Of a stretch of DNA of 53,917 nt, positions 1,482-10,558 are shown piece by piece. The position numbers were made by a program, and so were the translations under genes. The stretch is from an uncultured Acidobacteriota bacterium. GTDB taxonomy: Bacteria; Acidobacteriota; CAIWXX01. Each line of letters opens with the position of its first letter. Within the stretch, counting starts at the first letter, position 1. A model generated the notes under the pieces. It ran no database searches. It worked only from the letters and a program-made list of their open reading frames with translations, and had not been told where the DNA came from. The DNA is taken from assembly GCA_903916735.1 (NCBI GenBank), contig CAIWXX010000092.1:1-53917 (forward strand), in the 5' to 3' direction.

Positions 1482-3173
1482 ATGCTCACGAGACGAAACG
1501 TGAAGTTGCTTTTGAGATACGTCTTGAGTCTCATTTTATGTTCGGTCAGCCATGCGAATGGTATTGCTGCGCCCAAATTCCATGATGATGATCCGATCCT
1601 TCGTGAACCTGAATCACAAGATGCCACCGGCGCCAAATTCCGTATCTTTGATCCGGTCTACAATAATCTGGAGAATTTCTTTTCCAAGCCGGGAGACCCG
1701 GCGCAAAATGTTCGAGCGCAGAATATCAATACAATTGATGAAGTGCCTGATTCAAGCTGGTTCACCAACCGTATCGGCACCAGACTCATGACAATGGAAG
1801 AGATTGAGAAAGGTCCATGCGACCTGGACAAGCGGCTTGCCAATTCGTTGACTGTGCTCGAAATCGATAATACCGGGGACCTTCCTGCACTGACTGTCGC
1901 TGATGCTTCAGGACAGACATGGACGATCGCATTCGATCCGCCGGCCTATCCCACGATGGCGACTGGGGCAGGGATGATTGTGTCGAGATTGTTATGGGTG
2001 ATCGGTTACAACGTGCCTGAAAGCCAGATCATTCGATTGCATATCGAGGATCTGGCGATCGATGAAAACGCTGCTATCCGGATGCCATCTCTCCAAAAGA
2101 AAAGCATCATGAGAAAAGATCTCGTCACTCTGCTACAAAAAGTTCGAAAAGAGGAGGATGGATCCATTCGAGCCTTGGCAAAGAAGGTGCCCCGGGGTCA
2201 GCCACTTGGACCATTCTGTTATGAAGGGATGCGACCGGATGACCCGAATGATGTCATTCCACACGAACATAGGAGAGAGCTTCGCGGTTTCCGCATCATA
2301 GCTGCCTGGCTTAATATCGTTAACTGCGATGCAACGCATACATATGACGCGCTTGTCTCAAAGAATGGCACGTCGACGGTGATGCATTATTTATCTGATT
2401 TTGATTCTGCGCTGGGCAGCGGAGGTTTTCGACCGCATGATTATTGGGAAGGCTATGAATACCAATTCGAAGGATTCAGATCGATATTACGAAATCTGGC
2501 GAGCTTCGGCTTTCAATCGAAGCCGTGGCAAACTATTGACTTCTTCGAATCCAGTTCCATAGGACGAATGCCCGGCGACAATACCAGATGGGATCCAATT
2601 GGCTGGAAACCATGGATGCCACATCCAGCCTTCCTGCGTGCACGCGATGATGATTCATTCTGGGCAGCCAAAAAGGTGATGGCGATATCCGATGAGCTCA
2701 TCGGGGCTGCGGTGCGAGCAGGTCAGTTGAATGATCAGAAATCAGAACTGTTCTTGAAAAAAGCACTCATTGAGCGTCGTGATTCTATTGGCAGTGCCTA
2801 TTTCACACGCTTGAATCCGATTGCGAAGCCTGCGATTGAAGCATCGGGAATATTGCAATTCAAAAACCTTGTCGCCACCAATCGGGTTGTCAATCCAACA
2901 GAAAAATACCAAGTGACTTGGTTTCTTTTCGATAACTCATCCGGCCAATCAACCTGGGTGGGAGAAACCAGCAATTCATCAGGAGAAATGGCTCCTCCGG
3001 TTGCATTGCCAAATGATCTAGACTCGATTGTAAGGATCGATATTTGTCAGGTGGTCCAGCAAATGCCATGCTGGGAACGACCATTGACGGTGTTTTTCCG
3101 CTTGACACAAAAGGGGTGGAAACTCATCGGCCTCGAACACTCATGTGTTATTGCAAATCAGTCCGCTCGATGA
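1482..3173 (+). CDS. conserved-looking secreted protein of unknown function, possibly kinase-fold
   Basis: 563 aa with an N-terminal hydrophobic segment (about 9-28) typical of a signal peptide. The early part contains a PDSSWFTNR motif. The middle contains a segment beginning HRRELRGF followed by an AAWLN helix and then an HYLSDFDSALGS motif, which resembles the DFG-like part of HipA/atypical kinase folds. The residue expected to be the catalytic Asp/Asn pair is not clear, so kinase activity is speculative. It follows the Omp85-like gene by 12 nt, with a GAGG-type RBS, and is probably in the same operon. I do not recognise a named family; a surface or periplasmic partner of the barrel is an inference from linkage. 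Confidence 0.6.
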   Translation: MLTRRNVKLLLRYVLSLILCSVSHANGIAAPKFHDDDPILREPESQDATGAKFRIFDPVYNNLENFFSKPGDPAQNVRAQNINTIDEVPDSSWFTNRIGTRLMTMEEIEKGPCDLDKRLANSLTVLEIDNTGDLPALTVADASGQTWTIAFDPPAYPTMATGAGMIVSRLLWVIGYNVPESQIIRLHIEDLAIDENAAIRMPSLQKKSIMRKDLVTLLQKVRKEEDGSIRALAKKVPRGQPLGPFCYEGMRPDDPNDVIPHEHRRELRGFRIIAAWLNIVNCDATHTYDALVSKNGTSTVMHYLSDFDSALGSGGFRPHDYWEGYEYQFEGFRSILRNLASFGFQSKPWQTIDFFESSSIGRMPGDNTRWDPIGWKPWMPHPAFLRARDDDSFWAAKKVMAISDELIGAAVRAGQLNDQKSELFLKKALIERRDSIGSAYFTRLNPIAKPAIEASGILQFKNLVATNRVVNPTEKYQVTWFLFDNSSGQSTWVGETSNSSGEMAPPVALPNDLDSIVRIDICQVVQQMPCWERPLTVFFRLTQKGWKLIGLEHSCVIANQSAR

Positions 3174-3296
3174 TAGTTATAATTGCCATCGTAATGACGA
3201 GAAAAATAAGCACAGATCCCGGGTCATTCCACGGCTTTGCCTTGAATGAAGGCCTCACTGAGCTCGCAGATCAGGTGGTCCTAAACGTAGACAGGG

Positions 3297-3338
3297 ACGT
3301 AAACGTGATCGATCAGCGCCTTTCGTCCACGTTTACGT
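3297..3338. repeat. inverted repeat ACGTAAACGTG / CACGTTTACGT
   Basis: Two perfect 11-nt arms (3297-3307 and 3328-3338) separated by 20 nt form a hairpin just upstream of the AT-rich sulfatase-like gene. The right arm continues with a further TTTACG unit, so the element is built from ACGTTT/ACGTAG-like hexamers. A similar hexamer repeat (ACGTCTACG twice) lies at 33484-33504. It may be a small mobile hairpin or a terminator for the preceding operon. Confidence 0.65.
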
Positions 3339-3403
3339 TTACGATATATGCTCTGGAGTCTCTAACCATATGTTGGTAAGGATCATGAGCCAAGGTGCCT
3401 AGA

Positions 3404-4996: not shown

Positions 4997-5520
4997 ATGA
5001 GAGTAGACACAAGGATGAAGAATAATACAGCCAAGGCGATACAGGAACCCGGCTTGGCGGCACGCATGCTTCAGAACGTCGGTCGGGCCAAACAGGCGTT
5101 TGATGCGATTCACATGGAGATGGGACGACTGGTCGCGAAGTCTATCATGCTGATGGAGCGGCAGAAGCGATCGGGGCCAGATTCTCACCCGGAAGACCCG
5201 GAGATTAGGAAGTGGGCCCGTCAACCCGGATCGGTGTATATGGGAGATCAAAAGGCCCCATTAGAGCAGCCGCGACTTCGCGGTTCGAACGGAGAAATCC
5301 CACTCGATACATACCAGAAGTTGAGGAAGCCGGGAGCATACGCTGAGGAACGCCTTGGACATGTTTTCCGTGATGTCTTGTCCGGAAGTAGGGGGAGGGA
5401 GATCGTTACAAACTCAACAGCCGAGCTTGGTGTCTCGCCGAGAGCCATTTCTAAGCACTTGGTCAAAACCATGGACATCAAGCTCCAGGAGCTCAAGGAA
5501 CTAAACCAATCTTTATTTTA
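4997..5520 (+). pseudogene. N-terminal remnant of an IS256/mutator-type transposase
   Basis: About 175 codons resemble the N-terminal part of mutator-family transposases: an EMGRL helix, a PGSVYMGDQK segment, then PRLRG-x-GEIPL, a degraded VLSGSRGRE box and LGVSPRAISK (helix-turn-helix). The DDE catalytic portion is absent, so it cannot be active. The reading frame remains open through the end of the fragment and continues in frame into the next gene (start 5540), giving an apparent 440-aa fusion. Terminal inverted repeats were not found. Confidence 0.7.
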
Positions 5521-5527
5521 TTTCCAG

Positions 5528-5534
5528 AAAGGAG
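5528..5534 (+). promoter_or_regulatory. ribosome binding site that sets the start of the barrel-like gene
   Basis: AAAGGAG lies 5 nt before ATG 5540. The ATG is followed by a clear signal peptide, showing that the true gene starts here and not at the upstream in-frame ATG at 4997 in transposase remnant sequence. Confidence 0.75.
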
Positions 5535-5539
5535 CACGC

Positions 5540-6319
5540 ATGATCGGAGATCGTATTCTTAAAACAGCTATTTTCGTTTTTTTGGTTTGTGCCGGACTTC
5601 ACATGGCCTTTGCTGAAACCGAGGATTTCAAGAAATTGCCGGAAGGAATGAGGCTTCCGTTACGCTATGGAATCGGATTTACATTTTATACGCAAAGTCA
5701 AAATTACATTATTGATAGCCTTGATGTTGGAATTCCAATATTTAATCCGGCTATGGCCGATCTCATTAAGGTTAAGAATGACACAACAACCGAGCATATC
5801 TCGGTCGATTGCTGGCTATTGCCGTTCCTTGACGTCGAAGCTCTTGTGGGAAGGGTTCATGGCACGACAAAAGTTAAAATCTCCGAGCTTCGCCTGCCCA
5901 TTCCACTCAGCGATCTCACAATAAAATATGACGGTTTGGTTTACGGGACTGGATTGACGCTGGCCGGAGGCCATGATCGTTACTTTGGGAGCTTCACTAC
6001 TCAGTACACCGGTACGGATCTTAATCTCAATGAATCCTCCGTGACAGCTATCGTTTTAACTCCCAAAGCTGGTGTGACGTTCAGCCGGGCGGCGATTTGG
6101 GCAGGAGCCATGTATCAACGTGCCAAAGAGGATCATCGAGGACGGTATACCATCCCATTTTTTGGTAACGTGTCATATTCTGTTAAGCTCCATGAGAAAT
6201 CCCCCTGGAATTTTCAAGCGGGATTCACGAGCGAGTTGGCGAAACACTGGCTCATTGTCGCCGAAGGTGGTCTTGGTGACCGAAAATCTTTGCTCGCCCG
6301 CATCGAATATCGCCTTTAA
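5540..6319 (+). CDS. secreted, probably outer-membrane beta-barrel-like protein
   Basis: 259 aa. A signal peptide (MIGDRILKTAIFVFLVCAG, ending near AFA-ETED) is followed by a body of alternating strands with glycines and aromatics, ending in a YRL C-terminus typical of barrel proteins. It resembles generic outer-membrane or porin-like proteins of about 250 aa with no named family recognised. The start is fixed by the strong RBS at 5528-5534. Upstream in-frame codons belong to a transposase remnant. It stands alone; 225 bp follow without a recognised gene. Confidence 0.65.
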   Translation: MIGDRILKTAIFVFLVCAGLHMAFAETEDFKKLPEGMRLPLRYGIGFTFYTQSQNYIIDSLDVGIPIFNPAMADLIKVKNDTTTEHISVDCWLLPFLDVEALVGRVHGTTKVKISELRLPIPLSDLTIKYDGLVYGTGLTLAGGHDRYFGSFTTQYTGTDLNLNESSVTAIVLTPKAGVTFSRAAIWAGAMYQRAKEDHRGRYTIPFFGNVSYSVKLHEKSPWNFQAGFTSELAKHWLIVAEGGLGDRKSLLARIEYRL

Positions 6320-6544: not shown

Positions 6545-7031
6545 TTAGGCTTGATCTTTCGGAGTCGGCTTGTTTGAAAAGGTGAGATCGAGGTTTTTCT
6601 CATTGCGCAGATAGGCATGCCCTTTTTCGTCTGTAATTCAGAACTCATCTGCTGGCGACGTTGCGACAATTTGCTTGAGCCGGGTGCGAATCTCAGACGA
6701 GGATATTGCTGCATGGTTTTCCGCAATATCAACGAGGTGGGCGAGGAGAGTCGCTTCAACCAGCATCTGATACCCGATCAGATCCTCTGCCTTCTCAGGA
6801 ACGTCCGTGACAAAGCGATCACTCGCTTCCAAGACATCGATGACGGCAGCTGCTTTTTCCGCGGCTTCATCGATGAGAGCGCGGCGCGTATCGATGATCA
6901 CGATATAGCTGTTAACGGCCAGTGTAATCGCAAGGACGAACGCAAAGATGATGATCAGCTGTGTCCTGAGTCCTATGAGAATTCTCCTGATGTTATCCGG
7001 CTGCTCATCGACAATATCGGTCTTGACTCAT
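6545..7031 (-). pseudogene. broken membrane sensor N-terminus with in-frame TGA
   Basis: Read on the minus strand from ATG 7031 the sequence gives MSQD. Removing one base of the CC at 7019-7020 lets it continue as DIVDEQPDNIRRILIGL, a membrane helix (LIIIFAFVLAITLAVNSYIV), and an extracytoplasmic four-helix/Cache-like sensor segment. An in-frame TGA at 6638-6640 interrupts ...SPADEF and the frame then continues ITDEKGHAYLRNEKN to a TAA at 6545. The position of the TGA fits a Trp in a DEFWITDEKG-type motif (my recollection of such sensors), so a nonsense mutation is the simplest explanation. A selenocysteine tRNA lies 96 bp upstream on the same strand, so recoding is an alternative. The output domain is absent. 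Confidence 0.55.
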
Positions 7032-7077
7032 CTGTGTGATGTGCAAAAGCCCAGTGGTCAAATGAAGACAAATGCTG

Positions 7078-7095
7078 AACGGGAAAATACCCGTT
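7078..7095 (-). terminator. possible hairpin terminator after tRNA-Sec
   Basis: A perfect 6-bp stem (AACGGG-aaaata-CCCGTT), extendable by GCT/AGC with a one-base bulge, sits about 32 nt beyond the 3' end of the tRNA. It is not followed by a U-run, so the assignment is weak. Confidence 0.35.
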
Positions 7096-7126
7096 AGCAT
7101 CATAATGATAGCTCCTGCAAACTCCC

Positions 7127-7221
7127 TGGCGGAGGCGGATGGGAATCGAACCCACCCAACGGCCATAAGCCGCCGCACTGGATTTGAAGTCCAGGGGAGC
7201 CACCAGACCCCTTTCGCCTCC
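7127..7221 (-). tRNA. selC: tRNA-Sec (UCA anticodon)
   Basis: On the minus strand a 95-nt tRNA begins GGAGGCGAAAGGGG and ends GCCTCCGCCA, with encoded CCA. The anticodon arm is CTGGA-CTTCAAA-TCCAG, giving anticodon TCA. The D-region and the extended variable arm (TGCGGCGGC-TTAT-GGCCGTTG type) and the 95-nt length are characteristic of selenocysteine tRNA, not of a suppressor. The T loop is GTTCGATTC. It implies SelA, SelB and SelD elsewhere in the genome. No selenoprotein is certain in this window. Confidence 0.93.
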
Positions 7222-7307: not shown

Positions 7308-7718
7308 TCATAGTCCAGCGTTGTGTCGCTGAATCAAGGCCTCGACAGCCTTCACCAAATCTCGTGGATCAACGATCGGCTTGGCCAGATAGGCATCCGC
7401 ATGGCTCTCATTCAGCAGCCGTTCTTCATCGCCACGCATCGCATGAGCTGTTGAAAGCAGTATCGGAATTGAGCTGGAATGGGAATCTGATTTGATCCGC
7501 CTGGAAATCTCTAGACCATCGATGGGCCGGCCTTCATAGATGCATCCATGGAGAGTGACATCCATGATGATGACATGGACTTGACGCTGGGATGTCAATG
7601 CGAATATCTCTTGAGGATCATTCGATTGAATCACCCTGTAGCCACCCAACCGTTGCAGAGAAATCTCCATCATCCGCCCGCCTGCCGGATCGCCGTCGAC
7701 GAGCAGAACAGTCTTCAT
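7308..7718 (-). CDS. single-domain response regulator (CheY-like receiver)
   Basis: 136 aa forming one receiver domain: an acidic pocket at VDGDP (residues 7-11), the phospho-acceptor Asp in IIMDVTL, the conserved Ser/Thr in LLSTAHA and the switch Lys in LAKPI. There is no output domain, so it probably acts by protein-protein contact or phosphorelay. Its ATG overlaps the stop of the upstream histidine kinase by 4 nt, so the two form a translationally coupled sensor-regulator pair. Confidence 0.9.
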   Translation of the reverse strand: MKTVLLVDGDPAGGRMMEISLQRLGGYRVIQSNDPQEIFALTSQRQVHVIIMDVTLHGCIYEGRPIDGLEISRRIKSDSHSSSIPILLSTAHAMRGDEERLLNESHADAYLAKPIVDPRDLVKAVEALIQRHNAGL

Positions 7719-10558
7719 CTTTTCGAACTCCAGAGCGGCAGGATGATCTCTATCGTGGTTCCCATGCCGATGCCGCCGCTTTTCATTTCGATTTTTCCGT
7801 TCATCATTTCTATGAGCCGGCGAGAAATTGACAGACCGAGTCCGGTACCCCCGTATTTACGGGTTGTGCCACCTTCAGCCTGCATGAAAGGCTGAAAAAG
7901 TTCTCCTTGGACTTCAGGTGCGACTCCAATACCGGTATCTACAATTGAAATGCGAACAGAGGTTGTTTCCTCAGCAGGAGATGCATGCATGGTTACCGAT
8001 CCTTTGGCTGTGAACTTGACGGCATTGCCCAGCACGTTCAGCATAACCTGTTTGAGCTTTTGAGAATCCGCCCAAATACGATCGAGTTTTTCAGCCGGCG
8101 GCTCGATTTGCAGACTCAGCTTCTTTTGTTCAGCTTGCACGCGAACGAGAGCCTCAACATCAGTGAAGAGATCGGAGAGATGCACGTCTTCAATAGTCAC
8201 GCTCATCCGCCCGGCTTCGATCTTCGCAATATCCAGGACGTCATTGATCAAAGAGAGCAGGTGTCTGGAGCTATCATAGGCGATCTGAATGAATTCCAGC
8301 TCCTCTTCTCGGCTCACGACGGCGTTTTCCATGACGAGCTTGAGAAATCCCATGATCGAATTCAGCGGCGTTCGGAGTTCGTGACTGGTGTTTGCCAAAA
8401 ATTCGCTCTTCATTCGGTTTGCCTGTTCGGCTGCCAGGCGTGCAAGTTCGAGTTCGGCGTTTTGCGTTTCAAGTCTCTGGCTGTACATCGAGAGTTGTGC
8501 CTGCGATGCAGAGAGGCGGTTATAGGCTGCGGAGAGCTCAGCCGTGCGTTGCTGAGCTTCACCCTGAAGCTTCTTGAGATGAATGGCGTAGTCCAGAAGC
8601 CTTTCCTGCGCCTGATTCCGCTCGGTGATATCCATTCCCAGGAGGATGACCTGCCTCACAGCTCCATTCTCATCTTTTCTCACGACTGAGTTCCAGGAAA
8701 CAACCCGCTTTTCGCCGTTGATCCCGACGATGGCCATCGGAAAATCGACGACGTTTGAAGCCCAGCTTTCATCCAGGATCTGATCCAATTGCCATTCTGC
8801 TCCCGGTGGCATGAGGGTTTGACGCCAGTCAGTTCGAGTGAGATCACTCAATGCATGACCCGTTGATTGTTCGACGGCCGGATTGATGAACTCAAGGTTG
8901 CCTGTTTCGCCAATGACGAGCACCAGCAGTGGAGCGTTGGCGACAATATGATCAATCAGTGTCTTTTCAACTTCTACGGCTCTCTGAGCGATCCTCACCT
9001 GAGTCATATCATGGCCGACTCCAATGAACATGGGATCGAGGCCTGGGCGAGGGAGATATTTCCTGAATGACCAGAGAATCGGGCGATGAATACCTTCGAA
9101 TTCTAATTCGGCTTCAGCATTTCCCTCCTTCAGAGCCTTGGCAATCATGCGATCTGCCCGGCTTCGGGCCTCTGATCCACCAATGAAATTTACGAACTCT
9201 TGCCCTAGCAGATTTCCCTTTTCGACTAATCGTGCCAAGGCTCGGTTGGCAAAAAGAATTTTGCCGTCCAGATCGAGCACAACGGCGCCTTCACCGAGTT
9301 CATTCTGCAGGATGGAACTTAGGTCATCCGAGAGTTGCCGCCGGCTGCTTTCAACAATGACAGCCGTCAGGGCGATAAGGCCGAACAGTAGTAGAGCTGT
9401 CAGAACGATACCAAGGAACCGGCTTCTTGTGATCTCCTGTGCCAGTCTGTTGGCCTCCATGTCCATGCCAAGCAACCCGACAAAATTTCCACTGTTCCCT
9501 TTCAAGGGTGCCCAGGCTGTCACCCATGTCCCCCATTTGTCTGTGCTCACCGGCTCCATAGCCAAATGAGGATTTCGGAACAGCGCTTTGAGAAACTCGC
9601 TTGCTTCTTCATAAACATCACCAGGAGCCGAATAATCGCTTGAATGTGGATCCGTGCCATCAACCAGGAAAGTGAGTTGCTTGTTCCGCTCCGCAAGAAC
9701 ATAGGCAAAACGGATAGTCGAATCGCCGCGAATAAGTGAGTGAAGCTGACTCCAGGCAGGCTCCGGCGGCGTTGAGGTATCGAGTCGATCTTTCAGCAGA
9801 CAAGTCGTATCCAGCATGTGGGCAGCAGTGGAGATACGTTGAAGCATCGAGCTCTCGATGTCCTGCTTCCGATTTTCGCCCATTTTCTCGACGAACAGGC
9901 CGCCAATAGCGAAGATAAAAATCCCCGCAAACGCTAGCCACGAGATTTGCGCGCTGATTTTGCGCGCCAGGAATCCCCATTCAAGGGCCGTTCCGCAGAG
10001 GAGTTCTGGAATCAAGGGCAGGACCATGAAGACAAGAACGGCGACGAACAAAAGCCGTATTGCTTCGGCCAAAATATTTCCTGAAAAAAAAGCCGTCAGA
10101 ATCGCCCATCCTAAGATCACAATTGAAGCGACAATCGCACGGAAATGTGATCGCCATGACAGGACCATGGCGTCCGTGGCAATCCCTATGATGATCATTC
10201 CTGAGGCGAATCCCCACTTCACGCCGCCAAACACCAATATCAGGGCAATTGAACAAAACGAGATTGCCATCGCCAATGCGACATACCTGGTTTTGCACTT
10301 TTTCGCTGCCAGAGTGCCAGCCATTACAGCAACCGCAATCAGGACAGTTGCCTGCAAAAGAGGAGACACCCAGGATGGAAAGTAAAATATTTGCAGGACT
10401 TTGGCCCATTCACAAAGGGTCTGTAGGAAAGCCGTGGCTGCTACACGGCGCGATCCCAATCGCCGGGCCGCAAATGCAACAATGCCGATGGCTGCGAAGA
10501 AGAAACCCGCTGAAAACCACACGAAATCCAATCTGCTTCCGATGAGATTTTCAAGCAT
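7715..10558 (-). CDS. multi-TM sensor histidine kinase with PAS domains
   Basis: 947 aa. Residues about 10-190 form six to seven membrane helices. A helix at about 205-224 leads into a periplasmic sensor segment (226-375) and another TM (381-402). Two PAS domains follow (about 412-525 and 535-650), then a coiled coil (650-715), HisKA with phospho-acceptor His726 in SHELRTP, and a HATPase_c domain with N box NVLGNAVKFT (841-850), G1 DTGIGV and G2 GGTGLGLS (903-910). It is a complete kinase without its own receiver; the receiver is the overlapping downstream gene. The ligand is unknown. A remnant of another membrane sensor lies nearby at 6545-7031. Confidence 0.9.
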   Translation of the reverse strand: MLENLIGSRLDFVWFSAGFFFAAIGIVAFAARRLGSRRVAATAFLQTLCEWAKVLQIFYFPSWVSPLLQATVLIAVAVMAGTLAAKKCKTRYVALAMAISFCSIALILVFGGVKWGFASGMIIIGIATDAMVLSWRSHFRAIVASIVILGWAILTAFFSGNILAEAIRLLFVAVLVFMVLPLIPELLCGTALEWGFLARKISAQISWLAFAGIFIFAIGGLFVEKMGENRKQDIESSMLQRISTAAHMLDTTCLLKDRLDTSTPPEPAWSQLHSLIRGDSTIRFAYVLAERNKQLTFLVDGTDPHSSDYSAPGDVYEEASEFLKALFRNPHLAMEPVSTDKWGTWVTAWAPLKGNSGNFVGLLGMDMEANRLAQEITRSRFLGIVLTALLLFGLIALTAVIVESSRRQLSDDLSSILQNELGEGAVVLDLDGKILFANRALARLVEKGNLLGQEFVNFIGGSEARSRADRMIAKALKEGNAEAELEFEGIHRPILWSFRKYLPRPGLDPMFIGVGHDMTQVRIAQRAVEVEKTLIDHIVANAPLLVLVIGETGNLEFINPAVEQSTGHALSDLTRTDWRQTLMPPGAEWQLDQILDESWASNVVDFPMAIVGINGEKRVVSWNSVVRKDENGAVRQVILLGMDITERNQAQERLLDYAIHLKKLQGEAQQRTAELSAAYNRLSASQAQLSMYSQRLETQNAELELARLAAEQANRMKSEFLANTSHELRTPLNSIMGFLKLVMENAVVSREEELEFIQIAYDSSRHLLSLINDVLDIAKIEAGRMSVTIEDVHLSDLFTDVEALVRVQAEQKKLSLQIEPPAEKLDRIWADSQKLKQVMLNVLGNAVKFTAKGSVTMHASPAEETTSVRISIVDTGIGVAPEVQGELFQPFMQAEGGTTRKYGGTGLGLSISRRLIEMMNGKIEMKSGGIGMGTTIEIILPLWSSKR

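Follow-up and report, generated by a model that had tools for sequence, protein, structure and literature searches.

An in-frame TGA codon close to a gene for tRNA-Sec raises the question of whether the codon specifies selenocysteine (Sec) or is an ordinary stop in a decayed gene. This arrangement occurs in the window analyzed here, which is a stretch of 53,917 nucleotides from an uncultured Acidobacteriota bacterium. Below the tRNA-Sec gene, a minus-strand frame reads SPADEF-TGA-ITDEKGHAYLRN or, in a longer reading, ...ATSPADEF-TGA(6640-6638)-ITDEKGHAYLRNEKNLDLTFSNKPTPKDQA-TAA(6547-6545). The initial annotation had pointed out this interrupted frame, whose TGA is confirmed, and had placed tRNA-Sec 96 bp upstream on the same strand; counted from ATG 7031 to 7127, where the tRNA ends, the distance is 95 bases. 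The tRNA is predicted by ARAGORN (anticodon tca) and by Rfam (RF01852, 7131-7221, 76.2 bits), and this copy is the single tRNA-Sec above the Rfam cut-off in the genome. The one same-family genome searched yielded no tRNA-Sec at E up to 1e-9. Our analysis indicates that the interrupted frame is almost certainly a truncated sensor pseudogene, in which a Trp-to-stop change is one of several lesions. The features of the locus are listed in Table 1, in which the interrupted frame is called the relict.

Table 1. Features on and around the TGA-interrupted frame, in window coordinates
Feature	Position	Strand	Basis
tRNA-Sec, anticodon UCA, intact, outside the relict	7127..7221	-	ARAGORN, Rfam
Extra base proposed after ATG 7031-7029; alternative start with +1 shift, unproven	7019..7020	-	Sequence
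Relict reading frame, TGA-interrupted: predicted N-terminal transmembrane segment and first half of periplasmic sensor domain	6548..7018	-	Homology, profile match
AGGAG, Shine-Dalgarno-like, 7 nt before ATA	6984..6988	-	Sequence; putative function
ATA, possible lost start codon	6974..6976	-	Start Met of homologues aligns here; profile position 1 = 6976
In-frame TGA at conserved Trp position	6638..6640	-	Alignment, motif scan, fold test
Second in-frame stop, TAA	6545..6547	-	Tyr next in homologues; homology and coding signal end

An open frame on the plus strand at 4997-6319 resembles two joined things. Its first ~168 residues are reminiscent of an IS256-type transposase fragment, and the part after them looks like an outer-membrane barrel. 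Searches with the first part turned up neither a family nor a plasmid relative, nor another copy in the genome.

The relict frame and its sensor family

A codon score was trained on 12,957 codons, contributed by the 27 long open frames of the window. Up to the TGA (112 codons), the relict scores 0.299 bits/codon, and between the TGA and the TAA (30 codons) it scores 0.218 bits/codon. For reference, the long genes of the window average 0.142 bits/codon (5-95%: -0.002 to 0.252), and the two other frames of the minus strand score negatively. A sensor profile from which the relict row had been left out also matches the frame, with a domain i-Evalue of 6e-23 (54 translated frames). This match, together with in-frame codon signal on both sides of the TGA, shows that the frame is a real former coding sequence and not a product of chance.

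Taken alone, the relict matches no Pfam family, no NCBIfam family near its cut-off and no PDB relative. Among plasmids, it matches 13 records, 12 of them from Azospirillum, and wherever a gene is listed at the match it encodes a SpoIIE- or PP2C-type phosphatase. The A. ramasamyi protein of this kind contains HAMP and SpoIIE domains, and a Paenibacillus homologue has HAMP and a chemotaxis signalling domain. By sequence, the relict is the N-terminal half of a predicted periplasmic sensor domain that fronts HAMP/SpoIIE phosphatases and chemotaxis receptors. In the alignment, it covers a putative transmembrane helix at the N-terminus and then half of the presumably periplasmic domain, so that the N-terminal sensor-domain sequence of the Azospirillum SpoIIE-phosphatase type is present in its first half only.

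The Azospirillum SpoIIE/PP2C-type phosphatases (for example, WP_111068993.1 and WP_012977593.1) have in common with the relict a transmembrane helix followed by LLSEATLxAHLV...DEMWITDNRGRAYLHN, with identities of about 30-45% where sequence survives. Unlike the relict, their genes are complete, with Trp at the TGA site followed by KFAGVAGVDKPRIVQVG, HAMP and SpoIIE, whereas the relict ends half-way through the sensor domain. Loci from Paenibacillus, Tumebacillus, Brevibacillus and Heliobacterium have an IDEFWVTDSKG-like motif at the same position as in the relict, but they have Trp at the site throughout and open frames of 666-686 codons. The plasmid copy of Paenibacillus cellulosilyticus is a chemotaxis receptor (HAMP and MCPsignal) and is the sole locus of these four genera whose output domain was checked. 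A literature search for the motif DEFWITD found nothing.

Some relatives have unusual arrangements. The Azospirillum thermophilum homologue (L034 2830-4838) is apparently frame-shifted, with its N-terminal and SpoIIE parts in different frames and the latter alone annotated. In Zobellella (L064 around 3001-3378), the sensor domain seemingly stands alone in a 199-codon open frame, with a lipoprotein-like signal ahead and no output domain. A genome of the same phylum, G205, carries tandem double sensor domains (L072 and L076), of which the second copy is degenerate and lacks the Trp.

No closely related orthologue of the relict was found, and homologue identities are about 20-45%. An initial scan of genomes that used the relict as its only query gave no confirmed relative, and 19 stretches fitted the pattern. 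Among 60 relatives, the relict alone finds matches (E up to 1) in 22, its own genome counted, with a best E elsewhere of 0.016; the alignments inspected among these matches are not of orthologues. A stop-tolerant search of 396 genomes of the phylum detected the domain in five, own genome included, and the matches in the four others contain no internal stop. Within the own genome, the sole match to the domain profile at E up to 1 is the relict, with one TGA and one TAA inside, and no intact copy lies elsewhere.

The residue at the TGA site

The initial annotation considered mutation of TGG (Trp) to TGA the simplest reading and proposed an alignment with intact orthologues to see whether Trp, Cys or Sec occupies the position. 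Homologues, in place of close orthologues, answer this with Trp and bear out the proposed mutation. The codon is TGG in 31/31 genome loci retrieved by a motif with this position unconstrained, in a scan that may not admit stops there. These loci come from Azospirillum (23), a Roseomonas-labelled genome, Zobellella, Paenibacillus (two), Tumebacillus, Brevibacillus, Heliobacterium and a Clostridia bin; they are not independent, because 23 are Azospirillum. Trp is likewise present in all eight plasmid homologues inspected, out of 13 matches (H7-H11 were left out).

In the genome G205, both first-copy domains have Trp, and Arg and His are found in the degenerate second copies. A distant match, L073, has Ala. 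These site residues leave out L074, as well as L075, whose profile match (1-67) stops short of the site. Neither Cys nor TGA was seen at the site among the genome loci, the plasmid homologues, G205 and L073.

Further lesions and the pseudogene reading

The decisive further damage, which the initial annotation did not list, is the TAA located 30 codons past the TGA and the loss of all sequence downstream. The TAA position is occupied by Tyr in 7/7 Azospirillum alignment rows, and beyond it the codon score drops to -0.042 bits/codon. When 33 homologue reading frames were used as queries, each gave one match on the relict, and 33/33 of these matches end at or before 6542, including those of seven queries, all Firmicutes, that are individually weak (E 0.001 to 0.11). 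Minus-strand homology to these queries is absent further down, save for one match with an E of 6.5. The relict also has no HAMP or output domain, as judged by the lack of homology past 6542 and of any Pfam match.

The normal start is missing as well. From the upstream TGA at 7030-7028 to GTG 6901-6899, the frame contains no in-frame ATG, GTG or TTG, and this GTG already lies beyond the predicted transmembrane helix. The first Met of homologues aligns with the ATA, and an AGGAG is present 7 nt upstream of it, which suggests that an ATG was lost there. It had been proposed previously that the frame is entered from ATG 7031 through an extra base. The interval 7024-6977 is coding-like over its 16 codons (0.258 bits/codon, a small sample), and therefore a +1 shift after this ATG is still possible; it is not established, because the start of relatives aligns with the ATA.

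The relict thus combines homology to intact genes with several disabling changes, as is expected of a pseudogene. What remains is almost certainly the 5' portion of a membrane sensor gene, coding for a single transmembrane helix and the initial half of a periplasmic domain. In it, a single-base change of TGG to TGA has turned the conserved Trp into a stop, and the TAA, the missing normal start and the loss of the remainder of the gene are further lesions. Ribosomes entering the frame would halt at the TGA, and nothing suggests that SelB acts there. We infer the order of the lesions, a recent inactivation and the absence of a protein.

The intact codon signal up to the TAA and the ability of the organism to decode UGA as Sec speak against a pseudogene. 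Given the codon signal, the decay may be young, or a short product may possibly still be under selection. A short truncated protein that still functions could arise, for instance by initiation at GTG 6901 with termination at the TGA (87 aa), or by initiation at an ATA. The codon signal is unbroken to the TAA, the ORF at 6638-6901 is open, and the Zobellella frame seems to be a free-standing copy of the domain. However, the GTG start lies past the transmembrane helix, and the product would lack the latter half of the domain, which is conserved (KFxGVxGVDKPRIVQVG) and which the Zobellella frame retains. We consider such a protein very unlikely.

Errors of sequencing or assembly could also make an intact gene seem broken, and each single-base difference could be such an error. 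Against this stand at least three separate defects, and homology and coding signal cease completely past 6545; the downstream half could not be removed by one miscalled base. This explanation is similarly improbable.

Selenocysteine decoding and the fold after the TGA

Sec decoding is possible in this organism, whose genome encodes SelA (404.6 bits), SelB (328 bits, over the cut-off) and SelD (317.6 bits) in addition to one tRNA-Sec. Its SelD is itself a selenoprotein candidate, with an in-frame TGA in DCAG-TGA-ASK (L092 1531-1533, contig C55 near 140576) that would be read as DCAG-U-ASK and is followed by a stable hairpin. We take the UGA in DCAG-U-ASK to be at the known catalytic position. 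This gene served as a control for the fold expected after a recoded UGA.

Insertion of Sec by SelB at 6640-6638 would give a selenium-dependent redox-sensing domain. The presence of SelA, SelB, tRNA-Sec and a SelD with an in-frame TGA is consistent with this proposal, as is the fact that the sensor frame is still coding-like over 30 codons past its TGA. SelD and the sensor frame share an in-frame TGA in a genome with Sec machinery, but they differ in that SelD has its UGA at the catalytic position and a stable hairpin, whereas the homologues of the sensor frame have Trp and no such hairpin follows its TGA. From the SelD TGA, the initial 45 nt fold with -19.0 kcal/mol (z of -2.34 versus shuffles; -1.60 for 50 nt and -0.65 for 60 nt). 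The sequence from the sensor TGA reaches only -4.0 kcal/mol at 45 nt and -6.9 kcal/mol at 60 nt, with no hairpin above shuffles (z of +0.67 for 45 nt, +0.71 for 50 nt and +0.06 for 60 nt). A stem-loop with a guanosine in the apical loop just past the UGA is accordingly not found, since no fold is stable, in agreement with the earlier impression that no convincing SECIS hairpin follows. Rfam at loose E-values reports no SECIS at the sensor TGA, nor does it at the SelD control TGA, and its negative therefore carries no information here.

Published screens for bacterial selenoproteins (PMC1088965, PMC12013277) rest on homologues with Cys or Sec at the site and a downstream stem-loop. Homologues with Cys or Sec were not found here, and relatives of the relict have Trp. 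The frame after the UGA does not reach a full domain, because the TAA and the end of homology intervene; read-through would end at the TAA and yield half a domain without an output module. Homologue residues, fold and truncation together argue strongly against a selenoprotein sensor, which we reject as having a negligible probability. Equally far-fetched is an atypical SECIS that recodes UGA at a Trp site to yield a truncated, free-standing selenium-containing sensor fragment. Genome-wide reading of TGA as Trp is rejected, because TGA terminates 7/27 long open frames, because a histidine kinase gene (7715-10558) ends in a TGA that overlaps the ATG of the following gene, and because the SelD TGA stands at a Sec site.

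The relict has the look of a common decayed gene rather than of a novel selenoprotein, and the proximity of tRNA-Sec to the broken frame is probably a coincidence. As a single decayed sensor gene, it carries little biological weight. It does provide a worked negative: an in-frame TGA beside tRNA-Sec in a Sec-using genome can be a plain Trp-to-stop change. What decides the matter is which residue the homologues carry, how the fold compares with that of a true selenoprotein gene in the same genome, and what becomes of the frame further down.
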